DNA of 64,000 nt from Methanolinea sp. (lineage in GTDB: Archaea; Halobacteriota; Methanomicrobia; Methanomicrobiales; Methanospirillaceae). The stretch is from the NCBI GenBank assembly GCA_018262855.1, contig JADFDO010000005.1, positions 124,001-188,000 of the forward strand. The letters are read 5' to 3'. The notes below the pieces were generated by a model. That model saw nothing but the letters and a program-made list of their open reading frames with translations. It ran no database searches and was not told the DNA's origin. Both the position numbers and the translations under genes were made by a program. Within the stretch, counting starts at the first letter, position 1. Each line of letters opens with the position of its first letter. Of the stretch, positions 267 to 18,522 are shown one piece after another.

Positions 267-1640
267 CTAGTGCTCCAGTGAAGATGATGCTTTGGCGTGC
301 TCTTTCACGTGGACCCAGATCGGTTCAGTTTGGGTCAGCTCGCACATCCTTGTGTAGACCTTATCAAAGAATTCCTCATCGCTTGGGACTCCTTCCGGAC
401 CATCGATGACCTTTTTGAACTGGATCGGCACGTTATCCATACGATACACGACACCAGGCTCTTCCACGCCGACGACACGGACAGGTACATGGAGGTCAGC
501 TATCTCGCTTGCCATGCAGATATTCGGGTCCACGGTGATAACCGGGTGTTTCTTCACGTGCTTTATCGCGGCGATTGGCCAGTGGGCTCCGGCATCTGTG
601 CCGACATTCACAAAGCAGTCAACCTCGTCCCTCATGGCCAGGTCGACTGAACTGGTCTCGCCGGGATTCATGTGTGCGCGTGTCCCCTTCGACAGGTCGA
701 TACAATAGGGGAACCCAAACTGCCATGACCAGACCTGACCGGGGCCTGCAATATTATAATGGCCCCGCATGGCCATAATCGAGGCCTTGGTATGGGTATT
801 GAGGTCACGGGTAAGGCTGATCGCGATATCGACATTGTGGTTGCGGCCATCGGTGTGGGTGCATCCCATGCCGAAGAAGATCATCACAAACCGTGCATTT
901 TTCATCTTTTCCGCAGCTTCAAGGATCATCTCCCTTTTGCATCCCGCGACTTCTGCAGGAATATCGTGACCTCGCAGAACGGTCCGGAATGCATCAAAGA
1001 GTTCATAGTCATGTCCCTGGTTGAGCATGAAGTGGTAATCTGCCAGTTTTGCGGTATCGGTCTCTCTTGGATCGATAGAGATAATAGTCCGCTGCATCTG
1101 GCCCTTGGTGGTGAAAAAACCTCTTGGGAATATTGAGTAACGTGAAGTATGCCTGGGGTGAGCATGCATCGGGTTACATCCCCAGAAGAGTACCACATCA
1201 GCCCGGTTCTTGACTTCTCCAAGGGTACAACTGGGATAGCCATTGTCGAAAATGGCAAGGAATGAGGGTCCGTGGCAGATAGATGCACAGTTGTCAAGGA
1301 CGGCACCTGCTCTCTCCGCTACCCGGGCGACTGCACTCATACCCTCGCAGTTGGTGGAGCCAAAGCCGTAAATGAGGGGCTTTTTTGCTTTTATAAGGGC
1401 TTTTGCAGTATAATCGACCGCTTCATCATAGGTAACTTCCTTCATTGACCCATCAGGCTGTCTCATGCGTGGTCTCTTTGGGCGGTCCGGGCTCGAGACA
1501 TGGTGGAAGATCTCGTTTCCTATCACGCATGCATTACGGGTCTCAAGGATCTTCTTTCCATCGTCAGAGACGAGGCATTCGATATCGTCACAGGATGATC
1601 CACAGTAGGGGCATCCGACCTGGGTGATCCATTTAGGCAT
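267..1640 (-). CDS. fwdB: Formylmethanofuran dehydrogenase subunit B (catalytic, Mo/W bis-pterin)
   Basis: A 457-residue protein of the molybdopterin oxidoreductase superfamily. It reduces CO2 to formate at a Mo- or W-bis(pyranopterin) centre in the first step of methanogenesis. Cys10, Cys13, Cys17 and Cys38 form an N-terminal iron-sulfur site. The motif DNCASICHGPS (residues 117-127) puts Cys122 at the position that holds Cys or Sec in formate dehydrogenases, so this is a cysteine enzyme. The start ATG at 1640 directly abuts the fwdD stop and fwdA follows after one base, which implies tight co-translation. The sequence does not say whether molybdenum or tungsten is used. Confidence 0.96.
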   Translation of the reverse strand: MPKWITQVGCPYCGSSCDDIECLVSDDGKKILETRNACVIGNEIFHHVSSPDRPKRPRMRQPDGSMKEVTYDEAVDYTAKALIKAKKPLIYGFGSTNCEGMSAVARVAERAGAVLDNCASICHGPSFLAIFDNGYPSCTLGEVKNRADVVLFWGCNPMHAHPRHTSRYSIFPRGFFTTKGQMQRTIISIDPRETDTAKLADYHFMLNQGHDYELFDAFRTVLRGHDIPAEVAGCKREMILEAAEKMKNARFVMIFFGMGCTHTDGRNHNVDIAISLTRDLNTHTKASIMAMRGHYNIAGPGQVWSWQFGFPYCIDLSKGTRAHMNPGETSSVDLAMRDEVDCFVNVGTDAGAHWPIAAIKHVKKHPVITVDPNICMASEIADLHVPVRVVGVEEPGVVYRMDNVPIQFKKVIDGPEGVPSDEEFFDKVYTRMCELTQTEPIWVHVKEHAKASSSLEH

Positions 1641-3492: not shown

Positions 3493-3854
3493 GTAACTCT
3501 CTCACTGGTGTGTATACTCCAAGTATTTAACTTTAGAGAATTGTACACATGCCTTTCTGATTAGATCCAGGGGAATTGTCTCTCCGGTGCCTATCGGTTC
3601 CAAAAAGGAGTAACCATACATATCCATGAATGATTACAAATGCATGAAAATGAAGCGATATTTCCATTACTGTCAATATTAACTGCCAGATCTTTTGTAA
3701 GATGAATCATAAAGCAGTGTAGTATCAATATCTTTAGTTGCAGTTATCCTGTCCCATTAATACAGGAAATCACAATACCTATGGAAAAATACTTCACATA
3801 TTTCCAGCCACTCCGCTGGTGATAAAGTGAAGAGAATTTGTGGAAAGAACAACC
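3493..3854. other. Divergent intergenic region with promoters
   Basis: A 362-base AT-rich gap between two divergently transcribed genes. On the minus strand TTAAATAC near 3519-3527 could serve the sulfite-reductase-like gene. On the plus strand a short perfect hairpin (CCAGC/GCTGG, about 3806-3821) lies some 35 bases before the DUF364 start. No open frame with protein-like composition and no RNA gene were seen. Confidence 0.4.
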
Positions 3855-4607
3855 ATGAGCGATTCGCACATTCTTGACGACCTGCTTTCAAACCTCCCGG
3901 AAGAACCAGTCCCGGTCCGGTCGGTTCTTGTCGGGGTGCACTGGACTGCAGTATGCAGCCGGCATTGTGGTCTTGCCACGACCATTATTTCGAGTAAACC
4001 GCATGATCACACGACTTTTGTCCGAGGGGTCGGGAATCTGCATCACAAGTCTGCACAGGAGCTGGCTGAATATTCGCGTTCCGAAAACAGACTGGAGGCA
4101 AGTATCGGCGTCGCAGCAATCAACTCCCTTCTTTTCATGGACGACCGGGATGCGGTTGAGATGAATGCATCCGAAGTGCTTGTAAAGAAGGGCGCCGGAA
4201 AAAACGTGGCACTTGTGGGACATTTCCCTTTTATACCCAAGTTGCGCAGGTCTGTGAAAAATCTCTGGGTGATCGAGCAGCAACCTGCTGAAGGTGATTA
4301 TCCTGCTCACTCCGCTGCGGATTTTATCCCTCAGGCAGATATTGTCGCACTCACCGGCAGTGCCCTGATCAACCATACCCTTGATGATCTGCTCTCATTG
4401 TGCCGCCCTGATGCACTGGTTATGGTACTTGGACCGAGTACGCCAACCTCAGAGGTGATGTTTGATCACGGGGCGGCCATTATTGCCGGTACACAGGTGA
4501 TTGACGAGGACGCTGTGATGCAGACTGTCGGACAGGGTGCAACCTTCCAGCAGGTCAAAGGTGTGCGAAAACTGGCCTACACCCGCAAAGGAACATTCCA
4601 GGCCTGA
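3855..4607 (+). CDS. DUF364/DUF4213 family protein, putative heavy-metal chelation
   Basis: About 250 residues matching the family annotated as putative heavy-metal chelation (an N-terminal DUF4213-like segment followed by a DUF364 Rossmann-like domain). Seen: HWTAVCSRHCGLATT near the N-terminus, GHFPFIPKLR in the middle and a GPSTPTSEVMFDHGAAIIAG stretch near the C-terminus. The ATG at 3855 was preferred; an in-frame GTG at 3840 would add five residues. The gene converges on the molybdate/tungstate transporter operon, so a role with molybdate, tungstate or a cofactor precursor is possible but only inferred from position. No biochemical function is established for most members. Confidence 0.75.
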   Translation: MSDSHILDDLLSNLPEEPVPVRSVLVGVHWTAVCSRHCGLATTIISSKPHDHTTFVRGVGNLHHKSAQELAEYSRSENRLEASIGVAAINSLLFMDDRDAVEMNASEVLVKKGAGKNVALVGHFPFIPKLRRSVKNLWVIEQQPAEGDYPAHSAADFIPQADIVALTGSALINHTLDDLLSLCRPDALVMVLGPSTPTSEVMFDHGAAIIAGTQVIDEDAVMQTVGQGATFQQVKGVRKLAYTRKGTFQA

Positions 4608-4700: not shown

Positions 4701-5762
4701 CTAATCACCATTGACCGGAATCACATGAACCGCGGTCGCCTTGAACGTTGCATACACCTTCTCTCCCTGCGCAAGATGAAGGTCGGCGCAGCTTTCCCTT
4801 GTGAGGAGCGCCATGAGAGGGAATCCCACGTCAAGAATTACCCTCACGGTATTCCCGAACGGGATAATCTCCGAAACGGTTCCAAACAGGCTATTGCGTG
4901 CGCTGGATGCAAATGGCGCTTCCGATACGATGACATCCTCGGCATGGAGTGTTGCCACCACTTCTCCCGAGACAGGGGAGACGGCAAAGAACTCCGGTCC
5001 GGTGCGGGGAGTGATCCGGGCAATACTCCCCTTACTGGATGCGTTACCCCGGATCATATTTCCAATTCCAAGGAATTCTGCAACGAACGTATCAGAAGGA
5101 TGCAGGAACACGTCAGACGTATCCCCCACCTGTACAATCCGCCCTTCACGCATGATGGCAATTCTGTCGGCGATTGCATAGACATCGTCAAAATGGTGGG
5201 TAATCTGGATGATGGTCGTCCCCGTTATCTTCCGGACTCGGGAGAGTTCGCTCCTCATCCGCTCCCTCGTGCGGCTGTCGAGTGCACTCAGGGGTTCATC
5301 AAGTAACAGCACTTCCGGTTTGAGTATCAGGGCTCTTGCCAGGGCAACCCGCTGCTGTTCACCTCCTGAAAGGGACCCCGGATACCTCCGGAGGAGGTGC
5401 GAAATCTCGAGCATGGTGCATATCTCAGCCACCATGGAGTGCTGCTCATCCTTTGGTATTTTTCTCTGCTGCAATCCGAACGCGATATTCTGTTGAACGG
5501 TAAGATGGGGGAAGAGCATGTAGTCCTGGTAGACCATCCCGATGTTCCTTAGACGTGGTCCGATGGAGGTAATCTCCCGGTCATTGAGGTAAATCCTTCC
5601 GGATTCGGGAATATGAATGCCAGCAATTGTCTCAAGGAGCACGGTTTTCCCCGCGCCTGTAGGGCCGAGGATGATAAAATATTCATTATCCCTGATTTCC
5701 AGTGATGCGTCCCGTACGGAGAATTCACCCAATGTGATCGAGAGAGACTCAATTCTCAGCAA
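4701..5762 (-). CDS. modC: Molybdate/tungstate ABC transporter ATP-binding protein
   Basis: A 353-residue ABC ATPase. Walker A is GPTGAGKT (residues 33-40), the signature is LSGGEQQRVALARAL, and Walker B is VLLLDEPLSALD. The C-terminal 110 residues form a TOBE-like domain (segments GTVSEIIPFGNTVRVILDVG and GEKVYATFKATAVHVI), which in ModC/WtpC proteins binds oxyanion and regulates transport. It follows modB after 12 bases and is the last gene of the transporter operon. Molybdate and tungstate cannot be told apart from sequence, so WtpC or TupC are alternatives. Confidence 0.9.
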   Translation of the reverse strand: MLRIESLSITLGEFSVRDASLEIRDNEYFIILGPTGAGKTVLLETIAGIHIPESGRIYLNDREITSIGPRLRNIGMVYQDYMLFPHLTVQQNIAFGLQQRKIPKDEQHSMVAEICTMLEISHLLRRYPGSLSGGEQQRVALARALILKPEVLLLDEPLSALDSRTRERMRSELSRVRKITGTTIIQITHHFDDVYAIADRIAIMREGRIVQVGDTSDVFLHPSDTFVAEFLGIGNMIRGNASSKGSIARITPRTGPEFFAVSPVSGEVVATLHAEDVIVSEAPFASSARNSLFGTVSEIIPFGNTVRVILDVGFPLMALLTRESCADLHLAQGEKVYATFKATAVHVIPVNGD

Positions 5763-5774
5763 AGGTAGGTCCTC

Positions 5775-6548
5775 CTAAAACACGTGCACGCCCCTGTCGA
5801 AGTATTCAACTGCGCACAGGGTAGCAAGGGATATCATAATGAGTATCGTCGCAGCCGCCACTGCAAGACTCAGGTCCCCTGTCGATATATTCAGGTAGAG
5901 TGCAATGGGCAGCGTTTCGGTTCTCATGGTTGTAGCCCCTGCAACCAGCAATACCGCACCGAATTCCCCCATGGCTTTTGACCAGGTTATGACCGTCCCG
6001 GCAAGGAGCCCGGACCTGGCCATTGGCAGAGTAACATGGAAGAATGCACCTGTATCCGTGCAACCGAGTGTTTTTGCAACATTTTCGTACCTTGGGTTGA
6101 CAGTGCTGAAGGCCGATCGCAAAATCCGGATCATATAGGGAATATTCACGAACACCTCTGCCACAATGATGCCAAGCGGGGTAAAGATCACCGCAAAGCC
6201 CGCAGCGTCGAGTGCCTTTCCCCATGGGGTCGTTCCAAAAAAGAGAAGGAGGGCTATCCCCGCGACCAGAGGTGGAAGGGTAAGCGGGAGGGTTAATGCA
6301 AGGGTTGCGATCCTTTTTCCGAGAAATTGGTAGCGAGCAAGGGCATACGCGACGGGAACCGCGATCGCGATGCATATCCCGGTCGATGCCATACTTGTCA
6401 GAAGGCTGAGCAGGATCGCAAACCGTATCTCAGGACTCGACACACTGGCTATCAGCACGGGGAGAGGAGAATACAACACCAGGCCTACGAGGATGGCACT
6501 GATGGTGAGGAGCACCAGATAGGTAAGGACGAGGGAGAATCTTTTCAT
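5775..6548 (-). CDS. modB: Molybdate/tungstate ABC transporter permease
   Basis: A 257-residue membrane protein with about six hydrophobic segments. It carries the binding-protein-dependent transport signature around residues 160-180 (ENVAKTLGCTDTGAFFHVTLP), the EAA-type loop that contacts the ATPase. It sits between the TrmO-like gene (26 bases upstream) and modC (12 bases downstream). The late motif KAMGEFGAVLLVAG is characteristic of ModB/WtpB permeases. It forms the oxyanion channel in the cytoplasmic membrane. Confidence 0.92.
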   Translation of the reverse strand: MKRFSLVLTYLVLLTISAILVGLVLYSPLPVLIASVSSPEIRFAILLSLLTSMASTGICIAIAVPVAYALARYQFLGKRIATLALTLPLTLPPLVAGIALLLFFGTTPWGKALDAAGFAVIFTPLGIIVAEVFVNIPYMIRILRSAFSTVNPRYENVAKTLGCTDTGAFFHVTLPMARSGLLAGTVITWSKAMGEFGAVLLVAGATTMRTETLPIALYLNISTGDLSLAVAAATILIMISLATLCAVEYFDRGVHVF

Positions 6549-6574: not shown

Positions 6575-7072
6575 CTACTGTCCTATCTCAATATCACCGG
6601 TGGCAAGGAGACTTGCTTTCCTGATCTTCTCGATATGTTGTGCTGATACCCATCCCGTTCCAGCATCGGCGATACAGTCAAATGCCGGGATATACGGTTT
6701 GATGTCGAGAACCGGAGTTCCATCAAGGAGATCCATGCCATTGACATACAGCATCCCATCAGTTACCTTTTCCAGCTTGACGTAGGAGATCCCGATCGGA
6801 TTGGGACGGTTGAAATGGCGGGTGGAAAAAATGCCGTGTGGTGTTTCGCCATCCACCAGAGGCGGCTCTGTCAGGGCTTTCCGGGTTGCACGGTCAAAAT
6901 GATACAGGATAATGAGATGGGAGAATCCATCGATGCTCCCGAGGCCTTCCCGGAATTCCGGGAAGATCTCGATGGTTCCTTTCGCAAGCGTAAAAGTACT
7001 GTGAACGGGTGGAGCACCGGCATTGCGGAACGGGGAATGAGCAACGCCGATTTGTGTGTACGTGATCACCAT
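6575..7072 (-). CDS. TrmO-like (UPF0066) SAM-dependent methyltransferase embedded in the mod operon
   Basis: About 165 residues of the TrmO/YaeB beta-barrel family. Seen motifs are QIGVAHSPF at the N-terminus, the SAM-binding GIFSTRHFNRPNPIG stretch and DGTPVLDIKPY. Characterised bacterial TrmO methylates N6-threonylcarbamoyladenosine at tRNA position 37. The ATG at 7072 was chosen because it follows modA by 28 bases with GGAG upstream; a longer frame to 7150 would overlap modA. Its place between modA and modB argues for co-expression with metal uptake, so a role outside tRNA modification should be considered. The substrate is therefore open. Confidence 0.82.
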   Translation of the reverse strand: MVITYTQIGVAHSPFRNAGAPPVHSTFTLAKGTIEIFPEFREGLGSIDGFSHLIILYHFDRATRKALTEPPLVDGETPHGIFSTRHFNRPNPIGISYVKLEKVTDGMLYVNGMDLLDGTPVLDIKPYIPAFDCIADAGTGWVSAQHIEKIRKASLLATGDIEIGQ

Positions 7073-7100
7073 GACTTGTCCGCTCCATCGATATTTCTCT

Positions 7101-7937
7101 TTACGGTTTGACATCCGCGTATGCCGGGTCCGGGTAGCTCGGGAAACCATGCTTTACAAAGATCGCCTTCCCCTCATCTGATGCCACGAAATCTGCAAAT
7201 TTCCTCGCATTATCCTGGTTTTTCGAAAAGGTCGTTACACCGACGGGGACGATTAATACTTCATTGATAGTGGTCGGAATTGCGATCGAATCCATGGTCT
7301 TGAGATCGACATTGTCAAGCGTGAGGAGAGAGGCATCGGCCTGGCCGGTATTCATGAGGACAACGAGTTCATTGATTGTCGGGGTCCTGGTAATGACATT
7401 CTTCTCAACCGCATTGGTGATGTTGAGTTTCTTAAAAATTTTCGCACCTGCTTTACCAATGGCGGTTGCATTCACGTCACCAAGGGCAATCTTTAAACCC
7501 GGCCTGCCAAAGTCCTGGAGCGTTGTGATATTTTTCGGATTTCCTTTCTGCACGGCAATTACAGGAACGTGATAGGCAACCAGCTGATATGGGCCTGCAA
7601 GACCCTGATTCATCGCGGTATTATACTCAACCGTGGAACCCGTAATAAACACATCGCCTTTTCTTGTGAGGTTCATCTGGCTGATGAGAAGCCCGCTTCC
7701 GGCATAGTTATACTGGACCTCAATACCATATTTCCGGGTAAACTCCTGGCCGATATCATCCATCGCAGCTTTAAGTCCTGCCCCGGAATACACAAGAATG
7801 GCAGCCTGGGAAGATGCAGGCGAGGGTGTTGCATCCTGTGGGGTGATGCATCCCGGTACTACCGCAGCAATGATGAGGAAGAGAGATATGATAAATCCCA
7901 TCCTGGCACATGGCATATGGAACAGTTCCTTTTTCAT
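7101..7937 (-). CDS. modA: Molybdate/tungstate-binding lipoprotein of ABC transporter
   Basis: A 278-residue substrate-binding protein. A hydrophobic signal segment (residues 13-28) ends in the lipobox-like VPGC, so Cys30 is the probable lipid-anchored N-terminus. A Thr/Pro/Ser linker follows, then the ModA-type domain with LVYSGAGLKAAMDDIGQEF, which contributes oxyanion ligands, and GDVFITGS. It is the first gene of the operon modA-trmO-like-modB-modC. Specificity for molybdate versus tungstate is not decidable here. The presence of Mo/W enzymes on both sides supports the assignment. Confidence 0.88.
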   Translation of the reverse strand: MKKELFHMPCARMGFIISLFLIIAAVVPGCITPQDATPSPASSQAAILVYSGAGLKAAMDDIGQEFTRKYGIEVQYNYAGSGLLISQMNLTRKGDVFITGSTVEYNTAMNQGLAGPYQLVAYHVPVIAVQKGNPKNITTLQDFGRPGLKIALGDVNATAIGKAGAKIFKKLNITNAVEKNVITRTPTINELVVLMNTGQADASLLTLDNVDLKTMDSIAIPTTINEVLIVPVGVTTFSKNQDNARKFADFVASDEGKAIFVKHGFPSYPDPAYADVKP

Positions 7938-8112
7938 GGGAAAAAGTCACAAAACCATGCATGATTAATAATTTCATTTTATTGCAGGTTTCAATCAATT
8001 TACCATTATTGACATATAAAAAACAGCGTTGAGATAAAAGTACTTAACTTGAAAAGAAATATGATAAACGCGCACAGGTACCATTCGTAAAACCGTGATT
8101 GGCAGGGTGGTT

Positions 8113-8916
8113 ATGATACCGGAGATCGAGGATCAAGATTACGATTCCAGACCGATGAAACGCGAATATGACGTGATTTCCATCGATGGAGACACTCATT
8201 GTATTCGGAATGTCCAGGTCTGCCGTGAGGTGAGGGTGAATCTTGAGGTAAACGGGGTTCACATAGCATCACTGACAGCAAGTCCCCGCGAACTTGCGGA
8301 ATTTGCGTGCGGTTATTGCATCACCGAAGGTATCGTGAGACAGATATCGGACATCGTGAAGGTAGAAACTGATGGGAATCATATCCGGATTACGGTTTTT
8401 GATATCGACAAGTCCACCCTCTCCCGCCCCAAGGAGATACGTACCTCGGGGTGTGTGGGAATTGTCCAGGATGCCGGAGAATTTGGGATCGAGCTGCCCA
8501 CGGGCACCAGGGTATCCCGGGCTGTCATTTTTTCTGCAATGGAGTGTCTCAATGACCACGCTGTTCTGTGGAGGGAGACTGGAGGCACACACTGTACCGT
8601 CCTGTATGACAGTCACGGAACTGCTGTGTCCCATGCAGAAGATGTGGGCAGGCACAATTCGGTTGACAAAGCGATAGGAAAGGCACTGCTTTCGGGGATT
8701 GACACCGGCAAGACTTTTCTCTGCTGCTCGGGCAGGATGCCCGAGGGAATGGTGAGTAAAGTATACCACGCAGGGATCCCCATCGTAGTTACGAATAATG
8801 CCCCTTCGGCGGCGGGCATAGATCTTGCAAGGAGAGTCAACCTGACTCTCGCCGGGTTTGTTCGTCCCCCTAGGATGAATATCTACAGTGCTCCTGAACG
8901 TATTCTCGTGGACTGA
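8113..8916 (+). CDS. fdhD: Formate dehydrogenase accessory protein FdhD (sulfurtransferase)
   Basis: A 267-residue FdhD-family protein. In bacteria FdhD passes sulfur from a cysteine desulfurase to the molybdenum cofactor of formate dehydrogenase. Seen: FACGYCITEGI, the loop RTSGCVGIV, GTHCTVLYD, EDVGRHNSVDKAIGKAL and SGRMPEGMVSK. In Escherichia coli FdhD the loop carries CxxC; here only the first cysteine (Cys114) is present, followed by VGI. ATG at 8113 is preferred with GGGTGG just upstream; GTG at 8095 is an alternative. The context of fdhAB and fwd supports the role. Confidence 0.9.
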   Translation: MIPEIEDQDYDSRPMKREYDVISIDGDTHCIRNVQVCREVRVNLEVNGVHIASLTASPRELAEFACGYCITEGIVRQISDIVKVETDGNHIRITVFDIDKSTLSRPKEIRTSGCVGIVQDAGEFGIELPTGTRVSRAVIFSAMECLNDHAVLWRETGGTHCTVLYDSHGTAVSHAEDVGRHNSVDKAIGKALLSGIDTGKTFLCCSGRMPEGMVSKVYHAGIPIVVTNNAPSAAGIDLARRVNLTLAGFVRPPRMNIYSAPERILVD

Positions 8917-8927
8917 AGGACCACAAC

Positions 8928-9761
8928 TCAGGTCCTACAAATGCGTGCTGAAAAGAGATCCTCATCCCTGCAGGAGAGGATGAACGGAATATCCCCGGGT
9001 AATTCTGTCAGGATGAAATCAACCCTGCATCCCACTGCGGATAATCCTAAGTATTCAAGCCCTTTTCTTCTCTCATCGGGAATGATGTGCAGTCTCCCAT
9101 TCCCATAGCGTGCTGCCGTAATCCCGATAATGCTGTCCGAGATGCAGGGATGATTCCCCATAGAGAGATACACTTCTTTGAGGTTGAGATCTCCTCCAAG
9201 GATGCTGGTGGCGTGCTCAGCGATCCTGACGGCAACCGCCGCCCCCGGACACCATTCTCCATGGTAATTCACAGCCTCCCGGATGAGCATTTCGCGGTAT
9301 TCAGACTGCCCCATTTTCTGTATCTTGTCTGATCGGTCATGATGGGTAGCAGAAAAAACACAGTCCCAGCCTCGTTGATAAGGCTTGATATCAATCACAG
9401 GTGTGCCCTCAATACAGTCTATGTTTTCGACATCAAGGATCCCTTCCCGGGGTATTCCCAGGAGCCTGACAACGCTCACAGAAATGGGATTCGGCCTTGA
9501 CGGCGACCGGAGAGAGAAGATCCCTTTTTCGGGAAGTTCTTCGGAGATCTTCCTTGCTCTCGCCCGTAACAGGTCCCGCTGACCGTGATGCATCCAGGCG
9601 AGGACGATAAGATGGGAGCTGGTCTCCACCCCGTCAAGAGCGGGGAGGTATGGGGGAAAGACCTCGATCTGCCCTCTCACTCCCTGAACAGGCATCTGGC
9701 CTTTTTCGACGATAGGGCAATGGACTACTCCTATGGGCACGAGTTCGATCCGGTCTTTCAT
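8928..9761 (-). CDS. TrmO-like domain fused to an FmdE-like domain
   Basis: A 277-residue two-domain protein. Residues 1-145 match the TrmO family (PIGVVHCPI, GIFSLRSPSRPNPIS, EGTPVIDIKPY). Residues 155-265 resemble the FmdE family. They contain HGEWCPGAAVAVR, equivalent to the HGHxCPG signature, and GNHPCISDSIIGITAARYGNG, equivalent to the second cysteine-containing FmdE segment. FmdE proteins were first linked to molybdenum formylmethanofuran dehydrogenase, but their reaction is unclear. The gene converges with fdhD and lies next to a second FmdE-like gene. The function is unknown; a methyl-transfer or metal/pterin-related step is speculation from domain content. Confidence 0.78.
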   Translation of the reverse strand: MKDRIELVPIGVVHCPIVEKGQMPVQGVRGQIEVFPPYLPALDGVETSSHLIVLAWMHHGQRDLLRARARKISEELPEKGIFSLRSPSRPNPISVSVVRLLGIPREGILDVENIDCIEGTPVIDIKPYQRGWDCVFSATHHDRSDKIQKMGQSEYREMLIREAVNYHGEWCPGAAVAVRIAEHATSILGGDLNLKEVYLSMGNHPCISDSIIGITAARYGNGRLHIIPDERRKGLEYLGLSAVGCRVDFILTELPGDIPFILSCRDEDLFSARICRT

Positions 9762-9821: not shown

Positions 9822-10469
9822 TCATGTTATTTTCTCATAATATGCCATGCTACCGCATGCAGCACATTTATCGCCCTCCATCATGTATTCAGGAACCTGG
9901 TCTCCACATACAGGACACGTGACAGAATTCCATTTCTTCTTGTGGGTTACTCTCATCTTTATCCGTTCATGAGAGAACATACCCTGCCCCGCTGCCAGAA
10001 TCTCGTCTGCCAGTTGCTTTTTCATGGTCGCAGGTTTAAATGAAGGGCTGTTGTCATACCAGGAGGAGATGGTCGGATATTTTTTTAACTTCTCCTTGTC
10101 GAGATAGACACGGATACCCTCTGCAGACTCCTTTGCAGAGAAGGGGGTCAGTGTCATGGCAAATTTTCCGATGGGGAGAACCCGGAGACGGTGATTCCCT
10201 GTCGTCGCATGCATGATTATCTGGGGGGGATCGGGGAGGCACTTGGTGGTCTCGCACGTGACAAAGATCTTATCTTCGGGCTTTTTGCCGAGGAGGGTGA
10301 GTGCATAGTCCACCATAAACACTCCGATCAGCATTCCAGGGGCGGCATAGGTATGGAAGTCGATGCATTTCCGAAATGATTCACGAAGTTCATTCGGCAT
10401 TCCCATTGCATCCATCTTTGAAAGAAGTTCAGCCGATGAATATTCAGGTATGGCTGGCATGTGTACCAT
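9822..10469 (-). CDS. FmdE-family protein with C-terminal zinc ribbon
   Basis: A 215-residue protein. Residues 30-130 match the FmdE fold (FHTYAAPGMLIGVFMVDYAL, ETTKCLPDPPQIIMHATTGN). The usual HGHxCPG signature reads HTYAAPG, so the second His and the Cys are missing. The C-terminus carries two CxxC pairs (CPVCG and CAACG), a zinc ribbon as in FmdE/FmdD-like proteins of methanogens. It lies about 60 bases upstream of the TrmO-FmdE-like gene on the same strand and is divergent from the fdhA1 operon. A second in-frame ATG three codons downstream is also possible. Confidence 0.75.
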   Translation of the reverse strand: MVHMPAIPEYSSAELLSKMDAMGMPNELRESFRKCIDFHTYAAPGMLIGVFMVDYALTLLGKKPEDKIFVTCETTKCLPDPPQIIMHATTGNHRLRVLPIGKFAMTLTPFSAKESAEGIRVYLDKEKLKKYPTISSWYDNSPSFKPATMKKQLADEILAAGQGMFSHERIKMRVTHKKKWNSVTCPVCGDQVPEYMMEGDKCAACGSMAYYEKIT

Positions 10470-10965
10470 ATTGGTAAAAAAAATGCTTAAATGTTCACAA
10501 TAAAGGAATAGTAAACCTTGTTAATTTTACTTAATCTCCGCGCAAGAATTCAACGTTTTTCTTCCTTTGAAATTCAAATACCAAAGAATTTATTCCGGGA
10601 CAATCATCCCGGTCAACCACAAACACCTTTAAATAAGGATATTTTCCAAATTTACTGAGTATAATTACTTCTTTTAATATGGTGTGCATATAAATTTAAT
10701 TTAGTTAATTTTTTCTTTGAGTGGAGTATATTCAATGATTGTCAGGGGGGTTTGATGCCCTCTCCCCAGGCACTTACCGTTTCACCAGGAAACAATGCCC
10801 TGAGACTGGATAGGGTGTGGAGAGATGATCCAGATTGTATCTCCACGTATCAACCTGACTTCAACAATTTCAAAAAAAAACCAAAGTGTGTTACAGGCGA
10901 ATCGCATGAAACTCCTGTCTTTCTTAAGAGGAGAACAATCTGGAACAGAGAAGGAGAACATTACA
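10470..10965 (+). promoter_or_regulatory. fdhA1B1 promoter and long leader region
   Basis: A 496-base AT-rich gap between two divergent genes. A TATA-like CATATAAAT lies at 10687-10695, followed by the 11-mer TTTAGTTAATT at 10700-10710 that also occurs in the fwd promoter region. If this TATA is used, the leader before the fdhA1 start is roughly 245 bases. Weak open frames within it have no protein-like character. Close to the FmdE-like start an interrupted inverted repeat (TACCA-TAT-TGGTA, 10464-10476) is present. Confidence 0.5.
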
Positions 10966-13038
10966 ATGGCTAAAGCATCTGAACCAGTCTTGAAATATGT
11001 ACCCACTACCTGCCCGTACTGCGGCGTCGGATGTGGGCTCAACCTCGTAGTCAACGAGGGAAAGGTGGTTGGCGTCGAACCCAACAAGCGCACTCCCATA
11101 AACGAGGGCAAGCTCTGTCCCAAGGGAATGACCTGCTGGGAACATGTCCACAGCCCCGATCGGCTGACAAAGCCGAAGATCAAGAAGGGCGGCAAGTTCG
11201 TGGACGCATCCTGGGATGAAGCCATCGACCTGATTGCAAAGAAGTTCAAGGAGATCTCGGACAAAAACGGGCCCAAATCACTTGGCTTCCAAACATCCTG
11301 CCGTACGGTTAACGAAGACTGTTACGCGCTACAGAAGTTCGCCCGCGTTGGCTTCCAGACCAACAACGTCGATAACTGTGCCCGTATCTGCCACGGACCA
11401 TCAGTTGCAGGGCTCTCGCTGTCGTTCGGCTCTGGTGCCGCAACCAACCCGTTCGAGGATGTCCTGAACTCCGACCTGATCATCATGTGGGGGTCCAATG
11501 CCGTAGAAGCTCACCCGCTCGCCGGTCGGCGCATCATGCAGGCCAAGAAGCGTGGCATTCCGATTATTGTGATCGACCCGCGGTTCAGTACATCGGCACG
11601 GCTCGCCGACCATTATGTCCGGTTCAATCCGTCGACACACATAGCACTTGCCAATTCCATGATGTACTGGATCATCAAGGAGGGGCTCCAGAACACGGCG
11701 TTCATCAACGAGCGTACTAAAGGCTTCGACGACCTCAAGAAAACGGTCGAGAAGTATGCTGACTGCACGGAGATTCATGGTGTCCCGCTCGAAACTGTCA
11801 AGGACGTTGCTCGAAAGTATGCGAGGGCAAGGAATGCAGTCATCATCTACTGCCTCGGCATCACCGAGTTAACCACCGGTACCGACAACGTCCGTTCGAT
11901 GGGCAACCTCGCGCTGCTGACTGGGAACGTTGGCCGCCCGGGCGTTGGTGTCAACCCTCTCCGCGGCCAGAACAACGTGCAGGGTGCCTGCGACATGGGT
12001 GCGTACCCGAACGTCTACTCCGGTTACCAGGCCTGCTCCGTTCCTGACAACCGTGCCAAGATGGAGAAGGCATGGGGCATGAAGGAAGGCTCCCTGCCCG
12101 ACTGGTATGGATCAACACTGACCGAGCAGATTAATGATGCCGGAAACCCGATCAAGGCGATGTACTTCCTGGGATTGAACCCGGTTGTGTCATATCCCGA
12201 TTCGAACCATGTCATGAAGCAGCTGGAAAAGCTTGACTTCTGCGTCATGCAGGACATTTTCTGGAATGAGAGCTGCGAGTATGCTGACGTGGTCCTGCCA
12301 GGCACCTGCTTTGCCGAGAAAGACGGGACGTTCACCAGTGGTGAGAGGCGGATTAACCGTGTCCGCAAGGCCGTCGACGGCCCGGGCGAGTCGAAGTACG
12401 ACTGGGAGATCATCGCGATGGTCGCAAAGAAGCTGGGCCTCAAGGGTTTTGACTGGAAGACCGCCAACGACGTCTGGGATGACATGCGGGCATGTACGCC
12501 GAACATGTTTGGGTGCACCTACGAGAAGATGGGGAAGCCCGAGTCAGTCCACTGGCCATGCCCGGCAATCGACCACCCCGGCACCCCGATTCTCCACATC
12601 GGGAAGTTCTCGGCCGCGGATGGCAAGGGAACGATGTTCGGCCTCGAGTACCGCCAGCCCGCGGAAGTTGCGGATGATGAATATCCGTTCACCCTCATGA
12701 CCGGACGTGTCATATTCCATTATCACACGAGGACACAGACCGATCGTGCAAAGCAACTGCACTATGAGGTGCCCGAGTCCTATATCCAGATCAACACCAT
12801 CGATGCAAAGAAACTGGGCATCAAGGAGAACGAGAAGATCAAGGTTTCAAGCCGGCGTGGTCATATTGAGACCCTTGCACGTATATCCGACGATGTTGCG
12901 CCTGGTGTTACTTACATGGCCATGCACTTCCACAAGGGTGCAAACACGCTCACCAACACAGCACTCGACCCGCTCTCCAAGATGCCGGAGCTGAAGCACT
13001 GTGCGATAAAGATCGAAAAGATTGCGGGGGCGAAGTAA
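10966..13038 (+). CDS. fdhA: F420-type formate dehydrogenase alpha subunit, copy 1
   Basis: A 690-residue catalytic subunit that oxidises formate to CO2 at a Mo/W-bis(pterin) centre. Cys16, Cys19, Cys23 and Cys51 bind the [4Fe-4S] cluster. DNCARICHGPS places Cys142 at the position occupied by selenocysteine in Escherichia coli FdhF, so no UGA recoding is needed. The ATG at 10966 was chosen for AAGGAGA nine bases upstream; the frame extends 47 codons further upstream, but that part is not protein-like. fdhB starts directly after the stop. A close paralogue lies at 15203. Confidence 0.95.
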   Translation: MAKASEPVLKYVPTTCPYCGVGCGLNLVVNEGKVVGVEPNKRTPINEGKLCPKGMTCWEHVHSPDRLTKPKIKKGGKFVDASWDEAIDLIAKKFKEISDKNGPKSLGFQTSCRTVNEDCYALQKFARVGFQTNNVDNCARICHGPSVAGLSLSFGSGAATNPFEDVLNSDLIIMWGSNAVEAHPLAGRRIMQAKKRGIPIIVIDPRFSTSARLADHYVRFNPSTHIALANSMMYWIIKEGLQNTAFINERTKGFDDLKKTVEKYADCTEIHGVPLETVKDVARKYARARNAVIIYCLGITELTTGTDNVRSMGNLALLTGNVGRPGVGVNPLRGQNNVQGACDMGAYPNVYSGYQACSVPDNRAKMEKAWGMKEGSLPDWYGSTLTEQINDAGNPIKAMYFLGLNPVVSYPDSNHVMKQLEKLDFCVMQDIFWNESCEYADVVLPGTCFAEKDGTFTSGERRINRVRKAVDGPGESKYDWEIIAMVAKKLGLKGFDWKTANDVWDDMRACTPNMFGCTYEKMGKPESVHWPCPAIDHPGTPILHIGKFSAADGKGTMFGLEYRQPAEVADDEYPFTLMTGRVIFHYHTRTQTDRAKQLHYEVPESYIQINTIDAKKLGIKENEKIKVSSRRGHIETLARISDDVAPGVTYMAMHFHKGANTLTNTALDPLSKMPELKHCAIKIEKIAGAK

Positions 13039-14196
13039 ATGGCAAAGAAAGGCGATATGCTCTATGCATGGACCACCGATTCCGCACTTGCAAAGAAGGC
13101 GGAGTGCGGAGGCGCAGTCACAGAGCTACTGAAGTATGCACTCGAGAGCAAGACTGTGGACGCAGTACTTGCTGTAAAGAAGGGTTTTGACCTGTACGAC
13201 GCAGTCCCGACCATCGTGACAGATCCGAAGGACCTTGACGAATGCGCAGGTTCGCTCCACTGCGGAACGATTCTTCTCTCCAAGCTGGTGATGGAATACG
13301 CACCGAAGCTGTCCGGTAAAAAGATTGGGATGGTTGTCAAGGGTTGCGACATGATGGGCCTTCTGGAGATGGCGAAGCGAAACCAGGTTAACCTTGACAA
13401 CATCGTCATGATCGGTGTCAACTGCGGGGGGTCGGTCAGCCCGGTTGCCGCACGGAGGATGATCAAGGAGAAATTTGGCGTCGATCCAGATAAGGTCACC
13501 AAGGAAGAGATCGACAAGGGTCAGTTCATCATCGAGTACGAGGGCGGCCACAAGGGGATCAAGATGGACGACCTCGAGGATGAAGGATACGGCCGCCGCA
13601 GCAACTGCCGCCGCTGCAAGGCGAAGATCACCCGTCAGGCTGATCTCGCCTGCGGGAACTGGGGCGTCATCGGCGACAAGGCCGGAAAGGCCACTTTCGT
13701 CGAGGTCTGCTCCGACAAGGGTGCAAAACTCCTCGACGGAGCAGTGAAAGCGAAGAAACTTACCACGGAACCGGCAGACCCCAAGGGCATCGAGATCAGG
13801 GCAAAGACCGAGAATGCGATGCTCAAACTTGGCGACAAGTGGCGCAAGCGCGACTTTGAGGCACTCAGGTCCAACCTTTGGGAGTCTATTGCCAAGGAGA
13901 CTGCACGCTGCATGAAATGTGGGGCCTGCATCGCACATTGCCCTGTCTGTTTCACCCGTGCTGACAAGTATGAGCAGTCCGAGCCCGATATAATGGTCCG
14001 TGCAGGTTTCATACCGGCAGACCCGATGTTCCACCTGCGCCGCTTCGCGCACATCTCGGACTCCTGCGTAAACTGTGGGCAGTGCGAGGAGAATTGCCCC
14101 TGTGAGATACCGCTTGCGCTCTTCTCGCATGCGATCCGCACAGAGGCAGACAAGTTCTTCGAGCCGAAACTCGGGAAGTCGGCCTACACCAACTAA
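13039..14196 (+). CDS. fdhB: F420-type formate dehydrogenase beta subunit, copy 1
   Basis: A 385-residue FrhB/FdhB-family flavoprotein that moves electrons from FdhA to coenzyme F420. Seen: HCGTILL, KGCDMMGLLEM, GVNCGGSVSP, GYGRRSNCRRCK and ACGNWGVIG, the F420/FAD and iron-sulfur core. The C-terminal bacterial-ferredoxin part has CMKCGACIAHCP and CVNCGQCEENCP. Compared with FdhB2 it is 30 residues shorter, the stretch after the first cluster differs, and a C-terminal tail is missing. Its start codon directly follows the fdhA stop. Cytoplasmic. Confidence 0.95.
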   Translation: MAKKGDMLYAWTTDSALAKKAECGGAVTELLKYALESKTVDAVLAVKKGFDLYDAVPTIVTDPKDLDECAGSLHCGTILLSKLVMEYAPKLSGKKIGMVVKGCDMMGLLEMAKRNQVNLDNIVMIGVNCGGSVSPVAARRMIKEKFGVDPDKVTKEEIDKGQFIIEYEGGHKGIKMDDLEDEGYGRRSNCRRCKAKITRQADLACGNWGVIGDKAGKATFVEVCSDKGAKLLDGAVKAKKLTTEPADPKGIEIRAKTENAMLKLGDKWRKRDFEALRSNLWESIAKETARCMKCGACIAHCPVCFTRADKYEQSEPDIMVRAGFIPADPMFHLRRFAHISDSCVNCGQCEENCPCEIPLALFSHAIRTEADKFFEPKLGKSAYTN

Positions 14197-14386: not shown

Positions 14387-14956
14387 TCACGAGTGGGGGT
14401 CAACAGTTGTTCCTCCTGACGAGGGATAGTTACACGCACGAAGAAGCACTGATGCATCTACCCGGTGTCCCTCATGCAACCCCACAGCAAGAGAAGAGAG
14501 GGAGACAATCGACAGGGGTATCATGAACCCGAACATGTCTATTGAGGGAATCGTGCGGCGGTTTTTCCACACATAGTTACGCACGCTCCAGCGGTCCACG
14601 ATAATTCCCATATCTGCCAGGCAGGATGATACCCGGGAGTATGGCATGGTCTTGCTGAGGGTGATGCAGAGATCTACAACAGGAGACCCTATCCGGGTGC
14701 CGGGGTAAAAAGGCTGGTTGGCAGGAGATATTTGTCTGCAATCATGACAGAGAAACCGTTTTACGAGTACGTATACGACTCTCTTCTTCGCATTCTCCAT
14801 CACAATTGCAAACTGCCTTTTTTTGACATCATACCCGGAGAGTTCTCCACCGCAGTGCAGGCACCCCTTATGTTCATCAAACAGGACCCCATCACACAAC
14901 GGGAGGGTCGTCTGTAAAAGGTCAGAAAGTAATGGGGGTATCCGGGGTTTTTTCAA
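14387..14956 (-). CDS. Zinc-ribbon/helix-turn-helix protein, transposase-like N-terminal half
   Basis: A 189-residue protein I do not recognise as a characterised family. Seen: two CxxC-type pairs (CLHCGG near residue 32 and CHDCRQ near residue 68) that could bind zinc. A helix-turn-helix-like stretch follows (DLCITLSKTMPYSRVSSCLADMGI, then VDRWSVRNYVWKNR). This layout is like the N-terminal region of some transposases or transposase-derived regulators, but no DDE catalytic domain follows. The last 30 residues are of different composition. It sits alone between the two fdhAB operons on the opposite strand. It could be an IS remnant, a domesticated DNA-binding protein or an unrelated regulator. 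Confidence 0.55.
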   Translation of the reverse strand: MKKPRIPPLLSDLLQTTLPLCDGVLFDEHKGCLHCGGELSGYDVKKRQFAIVMENAKKRVVYVLVKRFLCHDCRQISPANQPFYPGTRIGSPVVDLCITLSKTMPYSRVSSCLADMGIIVDRWSVRNYVWKNRRTIPSIDMFGFMIPLSIVSLSSLAVGLHEGHRVDASVLLRACNYPSSGGTTVDPHS

Positions 14957-15202: not shown

Positions 15203-17269
15203 ATGAGTGATGAAAAAGCACCACTGAAATATACCACGACAACCTGCCCGTACTGCGGAGTAGGCTGTGGCCTGAACCTCGTATCAAAGGGGAACACGCT
15301 CGTTGGTGTCGCACCGTTCAAAAGGAGCCCGATCAACGAAGGGAAGCTCTGCCCGAAGGGTGCGACCTGCTGGGAAACGGTCCAGAAGCCGGGCCGTCTG
15401 ACCAAGCCCCTGATCAAGAAGAATGGCAAGTTCGAGGAAGCATCCTGGGACGAAGCCCTTGACCTGATTGTCAAGAAGTTCACAGAGATTTACAAACAGG
15501 GTGGCCCCAAGTCGGTTGGCTTCCAGACATCCTGCCGTACCGTGAATGAGGACTGTTATGCGCTTCAGAAGTGGGCCCGGTGCGGGTTTTTGACCAACAA
15601 CGTGGACAACTGCGCCCGTATCTGCCACGGACCTTCTGTTGCAGGGCTCTCGCTCTCGTTCGGATCGGGTGCGGCTACCAACCCCTTCGAGGATGTCCTG
15701 AACTCTGACCTGATCGTGATGTGGGGTTCCAATGCTGTCGAGGCCCACCCGCTTGCCGGGCGCCGCGTCATGCAGGCCAAGAAAAAAGGAATCCCGATCA
15801 TCGTGGTTGACCCGCGGTTCAGCCCAACGGCACGTCTTGCCGACAAGTATATCCGCTTCAACCCCTCGACCCACATTGCGCTCGCCAACAACATGATGTA
15901 CTATATCATCAAGGAAGGGCTCGAGGACAAGGAGTTCATCAAGGAGCGGACAAAAGGATTCGATGACCTGAAGAAAACTGTCGAGAAGTATGCAGATGCC
16001 ACGAATATCCATGGTGTCGACCAGGAGACGGTCAAGGACTTTGCCCGCCAGTATGCGAAAGCAAAGAACGCAGTCATCATCTACTGTCTCGGTATCACCG
16101 AGTTAACCACCGGTACCGACAACGTCCGTTCGATGGGCAACCTCTCGCTGCTCACCGGTAACATCGGCCGCCCCGGTGTGGGTGTCAACCCGCTCCGCGG
16201 CCAGAACAACGTCCAGGGTGCCTGTGACATGGGTGCATACCCGAACGTCTTCTCCGGGTACCAGGCCGTCGCCGTGCCGGAGAATCGTGCCAAGCATGAA
16301 AAGGCCTGGTTCCTCAAGGAAGGGTCCCTTCCGGATTGGTATGGCGTGACCCTGACCGAGCAGATCAACCAGGCCGGCGACCCGATCAAAGCTATGTACT
16401 TCCTCGGCCTGAACCCGACAGTCTCCTACCCTGACTCGAACCATGTAAGGCGACAACTCGAGAAGCTCGATTTCTGCGTGATGCAGGATATCTACTGGAA
16501 CGAAAGCTGCGAGTATGCTGACGTGGTCCTTCCAGGAACCTGCTTTGCCGAGAAGGATGGCACGTTCACCAGCGGCGAGCGGCGTGTCAACCGTGTCAGG
16601 AAGGCCGTTGACGGTCCCGGGGAATCCAAATACGACTGGGAGATCATCGCCATGCTCGCGAAGAAGATGGGCCTCAAGGGATTCGACTGGAAGAGTGCCA
16701 AGGACGTCTGGGACGACATGCGTGCAGTCACGCCCGGTCAGTTCGGAGTCACCTACGAAAAGATGGAGAAGCCCGAGTCGGTCCACTGGCCCTGCCCGAC
16801 CATAGAGCACCCGGGGACTCCCATCCTCCACATAGGGAAGTTCTCTGCAGCCGATGGCAAGGGAACGATGTTCGGCCTCGAGTACCGCCCACCGGCGGAA
16901 GTTGCGGATGCAGAGTATCCGTTCACCCTCATGACAGGGCGTGTAATCTTCCACTATCACACGCGGACCCAGACTGACCGGTCCCCAACCCTGCATTACG
17001 AGGTGCCCGAAAACTGGGTCCAGATCAACACGCAGGATGCGAAGGAACTCGGTATTGCCCAGCACGAGAAGATCAAGGTGACGAGCCGCCGTGGAGAATC
17101 CATCGCAGTTGCACGCGTGACTGATGAAGTCGGCCCCAAGGTAATGTACATGCCAATGCACTTCTACCTGGGTGCAAACAACCTCACCAACACCGCGCTC
17201 GACCCGCTCTCAAAGATGCCGGAGCTCAAGCACTGTGCTGTCAAGGTTGAGAAGATCAAGGAGGCCTGA
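15203..17269 (+). CDS. fdhA: F420-type formate dehydrogenase alpha subunit, copy 2
   Basis: A 688-residue paralogue of the copy at 10966, with the same motif set: CPYCGVGC near residue 15, KLCPKG, and DNCARICHGPS with active-site Cys141. Most of the protein is nearly identical to copy 1. A 51-base block is identical between the genes (11860-11910 and 16094-16144), which suggests recent duplication or gene conversion. It has its own promoter region with a different operator-like sequence, so the two copies are probably expressed under different conditions. It is followed after five bases by fdhB2. Confidence 0.95.
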   Translation: MSDEKAPLKYTTTTCPYCGVGCGLNLVSKGNTLVGVAPFKRSPINEGKLCPKGATCWETVQKPGRLTKPLIKKNGKFEEASWDEALDLIVKKFTEIYKQGGPKSVGFQTSCRTVNEDCYALQKWARCGFLTNNVDNCARICHGPSVAGLSLSFGSGAATNPFEDVLNSDLIVMWGSNAVEAHPLAGRRVMQAKKKGIPIIVVDPRFSPTARLADKYIRFNPSTHIALANNMMYYIIKEGLEDKEFIKERTKGFDDLKKTVEKYADATNIHGVDQETVKDFARQYAKAKNAVIIYCLGITELTTGTDNVRSMGNLSLLTGNIGRPGVGVNPLRGQNNVQGACDMGAYPNVFSGYQAVAVPENRAKHEKAWFLKEGSLPDWYGVTLTEQINQAGDPIKAMYFLGLNPTVSYPDSNHVRRQLEKLDFCVMQDIYWNESCEYADVVLPGTCFAEKDGTFTSGERRVNRVRKAVDGPGESKYDWEIIAMLAKKMGLKGFDWKSAKDVWDDMRAVTPGQFGVTYEKMEKPESVHWPCPTIEHPGTPILHIGKFSAADGKGTMFGLEYRPPAEVADAEYPFTLMTGRVIFHYHTRTQTDRSPTLHYEVPENWVQINTQDAKELGIAQHEKIKVTSRRGESIAVARVTDEVGPKVMYMPMHFYLGANNLTNTALDPLSKMPELKHCAVKVEKIKEA

Positions 17270-17274
17270 GTACC

Positions 17275-18522
17275 ATGTCTAAGAAAGGCGATTTACTCTA
17301 TTCATGGACCAACGACCCGGAGATCCAGAAGAAAGCGGAACTCGGCGGTGCAGTCACCACCCTGTGGAAGTATGCACTCGAATCCAAGATGGTTGATGCA
17401 GTCTTCGTGGTCACCAAGGGTGTTGACCTCTATGATGCCAAGCCGGTTCTGGTCACCGATCCCAAGGATCTTGCCAGTACTGCCGGATCGCTCCATTGCG
17501 GCACGCTTCTTTTGCCCAAACTCATCAAGAAATTCTATAACGGGGCAAGGGACATGAAGATCGGTGTCACGGTCAAGGGCTGCGATATGATGGCGTTCTA
17601 CGAACTCGCCAAGCGCCAGCAGATCAACCTTGACAATATCATCATGATTGGGGTCAACTGTGGAGGATCGGTCAGCCCGGTCGTTGCCCGGAAGATGATC
17701 AGGGAAAAATTTGAAGTCGACCCGGACAAGGTGCACAAGGAGGAGATTGACAAGGGACAGTTCATCATCGAGTACGAGGGAGGCCACAAAGGCATCTCTG
17801 TTGACGAGCTCGAAGAGGCTGGATATGGTCGCCGCAGCAACTGCCGCCGCTGCAAACTCAAGATCCCCCGGCAGGCAGACCTTGCCTGCGGGAACTGGGG
17901 CGTCATCGGCCCCAGGGCAGGAAAGGCCACCTTCATCGAGGTCTGTTCTGAGAAAGGTGCGAACCTGCTCGACGGTGCGGTCAAGAAAGGGATGCTTGCA
18001 ACAGAACCAGCAAATCCCAAGGGAGTCGAGATACGCGCCAAGGTCGAAAACGCGATGTACAAGCTCAGCGACAAATGGCGCAAGCACGATTTCGAATCAC
18101 TCGGCGAGGGCAAGGACCGCCTGAATAAGATCATGAGCGAAACCTCCCGGTGCATCAAGTGCTACCAGTGCATCGAGGAATGCCCCATCTGCTACTGCGT
18201 GGAATGCACGACTAAGAATCCGACGTATGTTCCGCCCGGGGAACTCCCGGTCAGTTTCATGTTCCACCTTATCAGGTACGCCCACATAGCTGACTCATGT
18301 GTGAACTGCGGGCAATGCGAAGAGGTCTGTGCCGCCGAGATACCGAACGCACTCTTCATGCATTCCCAGCAGGTTGAGCTCGAGAAGATGTTCGGACACA
18401 CCCCTGGAATCAACATGGAACTGCCACTCCTGGCATATGTCGAGGAGAAGGAGGAGAGATTAAGGCTCCACAACACCGGCAGCGATATGATCTACGAGAA
18501 CGTGTTCAAACCGTTAAAGTAA
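17275..18522 (+). CDS. fdhB: F420-type formate dehydrogenase beta subunit, copy 2
   Basis: A 415-residue F420-reducing subunit, paralogue of the copy at 13039. The core (HCGTLLL, KGCDMMAFYEL, GVNCGGSVSP, GRRSNCRRCK, ACGNWGVIG) is shared. The first C-terminal cluster reads CIKCYQCIEECPICYCVEC with extra cysteines and the second CVNCGQCEEVCAAEIP. A C-terminal extension of about 45 residues follows that copy 1 lacks. The longer tail is the usual FdhB form. The differences may alter partner choice, for example association with heterodisulfide reductase; this is inference. Confidence 0.95.
   Translation: MSKKGDLLYSWTNDPEIQKKAELGGAVTTLWKYALESKMVDAVFVVTKGVDLYDAKPVLVTDPKDLASTAGSLHCGTLLLPKLIKKFYNGARDMKIGVTVKGCDMMAFYELAKRQQINLDNIIMIGVNCGGSVSPVVARKMIREKFEVDPDKVHKEEIDKGQFIIEYEGGHKGISVDELEEAGYGRRSNCRRCKLKIPRQADLACGNWGVIGPRAGKATFIEVCSEKGANLLDGAVKKGMLATEPANPKGVEIRAKVENAMYKLSDKWRKHDFESLGEGKDRLNKIMSETSRCIKCYQCIEECPICYCVECTTKNPTYVPPGELPVSFMFHLIRYAHIADSCVNCGQCEEVCAAEIPNALFMHSQQVELEKMFGHTPGINMELPLLAYVEEKEERLRLHNTGSDMIYENVFKPLK

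Follow-up and report, generated by a model that had tools for sequence, protein, structure and literature searches.

A 64,000-nucleotide stretch of Methanolinea DNA, hereafter the window, encodes on its minus strand, from an ATG start, a 277-residue protein in which a TrmO_N domain is fused to an FmdE domain. The gene lies beside formate dehydrogenase genes, which hints that it performs an uncharacterised step in making or controlling a Mo/W enzyme. The explanation that best accounts for the observations as a whole, and which we hold tentatively, is that the fusion is an accessory factor for the biogenesis of the Mo/W formate dehydrogenase in the Methanomicrobia, one that would bind both S-adenosylmethionine (SAM) and a metal. 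The way in which molybdenum or tungsten is loaded into the methanogen formate dehydrogenase is only partly known, and the annotation names carried by archaeal TrmO_N and FmdE proteins are probably misleading; with the neighbourhood data, a vague annotation becomes a testable claim, that of a SAM-dependent, metal-linked factor encoded beside fdhAB, FmdE, MoeA and FdhD.

An earlier reading of this DNA, made from the sequence only, had described a fusion of these two domains with HGEWCPG and GNHPCISDSI motifs. Both motifs are present, and the domain assignment is confirmed by Pfam matches to TrmO_N (PF01980; E 8.7e-27, 94.1 bits, curated cut-off 26.8) and to FmdE (PF02663; E 2.6e-8, 34.5 bits, curated cut-off 22.9), and by a match between a C-terminal profile built from 20 orthologs and the FmdE structure 2glz (E 6.7e-7). 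That reading had staked the second domain on residues 150-270, and the FmdE match falls at residues 167-228. It is restricted to positions 2-63 of the 133 in the FmdE profile, that is, to the first half of the domain. Profile-profile comparison with hhalign also aligns the fusion with the neighbouring standalone FmdE (E 5e-7), and the closest solved relative on the TrmO side is AF_0241 (2nv4; E 2.2e-22). Two C-terminal elements are absent from the 277 residues: the DPRxxY domain of E. coli TrmO, in place of which the FmdE domain stands, and the treble-clef zinc finger found in many, although not all, FmdE members. An AlphaFold model made from two sequences had a pLDDT of 30 and was unusable.

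The fusion is real. Of 199 genomes sampled from the order Methanomicrobiales, 42 contain the same fused frame, and pairwise dN/dS values are below 0.41 in both halves, which rules out an assembly artefact. Specifically, dN/dS is 0.09-0.14 in the TrmO half and 0.18-0.40 in the FmdE half, values that indicate purifying selection and thus that both halves are maintained. The 42 matches, obtained by searching with the C-terminal part, are all strong (E <= 6e-11), and the next-best match among the 199 genomes has an E of 3.7e-6. When the phylum was searched with a profile, at least 100 bits were reached in 26 of 393 genomes, likewise a sample and not an exhaustive set. All 26 belong to families f1, f2 and f5, which lie within the order, or to f14 and f7, two families outside it; a profile search in other methanogens, as the earlier reading had proposed, does recover the same fusion. 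The matches below 100 bits were an f14 fragment at a contig end, with 59 bits, followed by standalone FmdE and other matches, none above 54 bits. In a tree that includes 32 fused proteins, their TrmO domains all fall into one clade (support 100/99), showing a single origin of the Methanomicrobia fusion. The nearest named relative comes from a Methanolinea metagenome-assembled genome and is 77% identical. At one locus (L052, genome G046) the fusion gene is broken into two frames, either by a frameshift or by an assembly error.

The architecture of the fusion has been reported before. The combination of PF02663 and PF01980 was listed in 2010 in Acta Cryst F (PMC2954224), and an archaeal fusion survey published in mSystems in 2024 contains the FmdE-UPF0066/TrmO fusion as cluster 663.1, with four assemblies from Methanosarcinales and three from Archaeoglobales (PMC11237513). 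In the passages of these two accounts that deal with the fusion, no tested function is reported. The proteins share the joining of FmdE to a UPF0066/TrmO domain; unlike what those passages describe, the clade studied here has a short and diverged FmdE half, lacks a zinc finger and is common in Methanomicrobiales, and the same passages do not contain its fdhAB/FmdE/MoeA/FdhD neighbourhood. We found no link between TrmO and molybdenum in the open-access papers searched, and the recent work on W/Mo maturation that we searched does not mention TrmO or FmdE.

The residues expected at a SAM site are conserved in the fusion. AdoMet is contacted in AF0241 by Gln22, Arg82, Asp111 and Lys122 (PMC4132733), which align with Gln26, Arg85, Asp115 and Lys126. 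Of these, all but Gln26 are invariant across 22 fusion orthologs, and Gln26 itself is mostly kept and replaced in a few. By analogy with its solved relatives, we predict that the TrmO_N half binds SAM. The fusion thereby resembles the class VIII proteins TrmO/YaeB of E. coli, AF_0241 and RPA0152 (3okx), which have a TrmO_N domain with AdoMet contact residues; unlike these proteins it carries an FmdE domain and no DPRxxY domain, and it is probably no tRNA enzyme.

The metal site is partly retained. In FmdE structures, Zn or Ni is held by His15, His17, Cys19 and Cys55 in 2glz numbering (PMC2954224), and three of these four ligands are kept in the fusion, where His167, Cys171 and Cys206 align with His15, Cys19 and Cys55. 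The position of His17 is taken by Glu169, a Glu in most orthologs and not conserved. His167, Cys171 and Asp209 are invariant among the orthologs, and position 206 is either Cys or His, the latter in the f7 copies. Judged from this pattern, the FmdE half would hold a metal, probably Zn, through His167, Cys171 and Cys206, the remaining coordination place being variable. The fusion shares HGxxC, CxxD and the three aligned ligand positions with the FmdE core proteins 2glz (Desulfitobacterium) and 2gvi (Thermoplasma); it differs from both in the Glu at the His17 position of most orthologs, in a second domain half that profiles do not recognise and in the attached TrmO_N domain.

In the window, profile matches bear out the surroundings named in the earlier reading, namely fdhD, modABC and fwd (Table 1). 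The standalone FmdE whose gene immediately precedes that of the fusion keeps His39, Cys77 and Asp80, carries Tyr and Ala in place of the other two ligands and ends in a CxxC...CxxC tail. Its family profile is closest to 3d00, a zinc-finger FmdE from Syntrophus whose structure lacks the core metal (PMC2954224); 3d00 resembles this upstream protein and not the fusion. Between FwdB and the DUF364 gene lie a gene for an Fwd-associated ferredoxin-like protein and then one for a sulfite-reductase-like protein. The true start of the first FdhA is probably inside its ORF, and the two loci used to name the second fdhAB pair, L005 and L047, are the same locus. Between the two pairs, a minus-strand region at 14387-14956 gives a weak DUF6431 match (E 0.0039, below cut-off) and is possibly the remnant of a mobile element. 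A search for riboswitches and other RNA elements in the window returned only four tRNAs at the Rfam threshold.

Table 1 Positions of the fusion, its domains and neighbouring genes in the window
Feature	Position	Strand	Basis
FwdB/FmdB, formylmethanofuran dehydrogenase subunit B	267..1640	-	TIGR03129 over cut-off
DUF4213/DUF364, putative heavy-metal chelation protein	3840..4607	+	Pfam
ModC, ATPase with TOBE domain	4701..5762	-	Pfam
ModB, permease	5775..6548	-	BPD_transp_1 and position
Second, standalone TrmO_N protein, between modA and modB	6575..7150	-	Profiles; clade separate from the fusion
ModA, molybdate-binding protein	7101..7937	-	TIGR01256 over cut-off
FdhD, formate dehydrogenase sulfurtransferase	8095..8916	+	Profiles; convergent with the fusion, gap about 12 nt
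TrmO_N-FmdE fusion protein, 277 aa	8928..9761	-	ORF list and Pfam/NCBIfam profiles
FmdE core domain, first half, residues 167-228	9078..9263	-	Pfam; alignment to 2glz
TrmO_N (class VIII SAM-binding) domain, residues 25-133	9363..9689	-	Pfam; alignment to 2nv4
Standalone FmdE, 215 aa, Cys-rich zinc-finger-like C-terminal tail	9822..10469	-	Profile; directly upstream of the fusion, gap about 60 nt
FdhA, formate dehydrogenase alpha	10825..13038	+	TIGR01591 over cut-off; divergent from FmdE-fusion
FdhB-like F420-linked subunit	13039..14196	+	FrhB-family matches below cut-offs; position after FdhA
Second FdhA copy	15203..17269	+	ORF; likeness to the corresponding gene at orthologous loci L005/L047
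Second FdhB copy	17275..18522	+	ORF; likeness to the corresponding gene at orthologous loci L005/L047

Much of this neighbourhood recurs in other genomes. The 25 fusion loci outside f7 (Methanomicrobiales and f14) all have a standalone FmdE no more than 10 kb from the fusion, and in 23 of them the distance is at most 2 kb; FdhA is within 10 kb in 23 and within 2 kb in 21, FdhD is within 10 kb in 22, ModA is within 10 kb in 3, and MoeA, identified by the Pfam domains MoeA_N, MoCF_biosynth, MoeA_C and PBP_like, is within 2 kb in 21. In a set of 30 genomes FdhD lies within 10 kb of 14 of 16 fusions, where chance, with about two FdhD genes per 2.5 Mb genome, predicts well under 1 of 16; this expectation assumes random placement, and neighbour counts inside one order are not independent, and synteny there partly reflects shared descent. 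The layout in Methanomicrobiales is fdhB-fdhA in one direction and FmdE, the fusion and usually MoeA in the other. Two f14 loci (L075, L076) keep MoeA, FdhD, FwdB and FmdE in a different arrangement, which argues against plain inherited synteny, and in a third f14 genome, where the fusion is a fragment at a contig end (L162), MoeA and two FdhD genes are found.

The tie to formylmethanofuran dehydrogenase that had been suggested is the looser one. The tight link is with formate dehydrogenase and MoeA; fwdB lies within 10 kb in just 7 of 25 loci, never adjacent, and the fusion is not within an fmd/fwd operon. The wider proposal of a Mo/W link stands for the Methanomicrobiales/f14 fusion, of which it is a feature, and does not extend to f7, where the seven fusion loci (L077-L083) have no Mo/W gene within the stretches scanned, or to f9, where a second type of fusion lies beside transporter genes. 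The idea that all fusions occupy Mo/W neighbourhoods is rejected by the f7 subclade; FdhD is present elsewhere in six of the seven f7 genomes that carry the fusion. Neighbours of the f7 fusions, as read from the sequence, include a P-type ATPase, a TPR-like protein and a helicase-like gene. In genomes where the fusion was not found, five FmdE regions (L150-L154) keep fdhAB, FmdE and/or MoeA, and FdhD is retained as well. The fusion is therefore accessory, and formate dehydrogenase in general does not need it.

These observations suggest how the fusion may act. We propose that it serves the biogenesis of the Mo/W formate dehydrogenase, and perhaps of formylmethanofuran dehydrogenase too. Its partner is probably the zinc-finger FmdE of the gene immediately upstream, because FmdE proteins of known structure are dimers (PMC2954224). 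The TrmO_N half would use SAM for the methylation of a substrate, which might be a thiol or a pterin-linked ligand at the metal, and this methylation would take place at the stage at which MoeA inserts Mo/W and FdhD carries out sulfuration. The proposal also draws on the placement of standalone TrmO genes next to ModA and on the recurrence of TrmO-FmdE coupling, both described below. Should the methyl group go onto a cofactor or onto a maturation protein, a step of the Mo/W pathway has so far been overlooked.

A broader version of this idea, which we consider doubtful, would make one family of all TrmO_N proteins of the Methanomicrobia, fused or not: SAM methyltransferases that do not act on tRNA but, in Mo/W uptake, cofactor insertion and formate dehydrogenase maturation, on a metal-bound thiol or pterin ligand; if true, a methylation step is missing from the known Mo/W cofactor pathway. 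The 30 genomes contain 114 TrmO_N sites, of which 16 are fusions, and among the other 98 a ModA-type binding protein lies within 3 kb of 34, against 0.5 expected under random placement. One of these 34 is the standalone TrmO_N gene in the window, whose product has His in place of the AdoMet-site Gln and whose genome has four TrmO_N genes. The adjacency of TrmO and ModA is not general in the phylum: as far as inspection of two tables by eye shows, no TrmO site of 25 genomes from other orders lies within 10 kb of an SBP_bac_11 match above 100 bits. In another clade, at L103-L107, L110 and L111, standalone TrmO genes are near an NBP35/Mrp-type ATPase, with aldehyde ferredoxin oxidoreductase and MoaD/SAMP also present at some loci, and at L087 (9800-12823) a TrmO gene has as neighbours a DUF134 regulator and two MinD-type ATPases that contain ferredoxin inserts.

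Two further explanations are serious rivals. The divergent arrangement of the FmdE and fusion genes relative to fdhAB in the window, with a few hundred bp between them, speaks in favour of the fusion being a regulator and not an enzyme, its TrmO_N domain sensing SAM and its FmdE half sensing metal, that controls the fdhAB operon together with the zinc-finger FmdE. Zinc-finger FmdE proteins have been proposed as transcriptional regulators (PMC2954224), and the region between fdhA and fmdE contains AT-rich repeats. However, these repeats are few and imperfect, the fusion has no known DNA-binding domain, and the f14 loci keep the gene set without the divergent layout; the invariant SAM-site residues fit catalysis equally well. 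We regard such a regulator as unlikely.

The second rival arises from the recurrence of TrmO-FmdE coupling elsewhere. In two f9 genomes (L158, L159) a longer fusion of 366-391 residues, whose FmdE domain is complete and is accompanied by a Cys-rich tail, is encoded immediately upstream of a gene for a PF01497 binding protein and, in L158, also of FecCD and ATPase genes. The TrmO domain of this fusion groups apart from the Methanomicrobia clade, and a tree that places all fusions together is rejected (AU p 0.035), so that a common origin is disfavoured, although moderately only, and the f9 fusion is probably of independent origin. FmdE and TrmO also occur as separate genes next to each other, at five Methanomicrobiales loci and in eight f8 genomes. 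Four of the five loci (L131-L133, L136) lie within or alongside PF01497/FecCD/ATPase operons, and in several of the f8 genomes the two frames overlap. Such overlaps, as between the FmdE and TrmO genes of L163 (6386-7416) and L164 (6531-7572), suggest translational coupling. The functional coupling of the two domains that the sequence-only reading had inferred from one protein is thus recurrent in several lineages, and the TrmO-FmdE pair is a functional unit used more widely. Since the f7 fusions lack Mo/W neighbours and the f9 fusions lie beside PF01497/FecCD genes, the coupling is not exclusive to Mo/W; the earlier reading had treated fusions at random outside such neighbourhoods as evidence against its link, and f7 and f9 partly bear this out.

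From these data one could propose a general module for metal uptake or for the handling of metal chelates, in which TrmO_N and FmdE modify a metal ligand or chelate that enters by a transporter, Mo/W being one case. It would account for the transporter operons just described, whose PF01497 proteins are most like 2etv (annotated as an iron(III) ABC transporter) with HI_1472 more distant, for the standalone TrmO genes adjoining ModA, and for the report that most FmdE genes adjoin metal transporters (PMC2954224). Against it, ModABC lies within 10 kb in just 3-4 of the 25 Methanomicrobiales/f14 fusion loci, whereas fdhA, moeA and fdhD are nearly always near. We consider this module unlikely as the explanation of the fusion, and continue to prefer an accessory role in formate dehydrogenase biogenesis.

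That the fusion is an ordinary tRNA (t6A37) methyltransferase, with the FmdE half a remnant or recruitment device and the neighbourhood inherited synteny, is very unlikely despite a TIGR00104 equivalog match of 117.3 bits (cut-off 93.25; NCBIfam name tRNA methyltransferase) and the action of bacterial and mammalian TrmO on tRNA (PMC4132733), given the purifying selection and invariant metal residues in its FmdE half, the lack in archaeal TrmO of the DPRxxY domain that E. coli TrmO needs for tRNA methylation, and the fact that no archaeal tRNA is known to contain m6t6A (PMC4132733). The number of TrmO genes also varies widely, from none in some genomes of the phylum to three to seven copies in family f5, seven paralogs having been noted in Methanoculleus marisnigri (PMC4132733); the authors of that 2014 study suggested another substrate for archaeal members. 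A further type of TrmO fusion is encoded on the minus strand of L168 (6276-7457), where a class I methyltransferase domain, closest among NCBIfam models to arsenite methyltransferase (below cut-off), precedes TrmO_N; this gene follows directly on an FmdE gene, and a FecCD-type transporter is encoded nearby.
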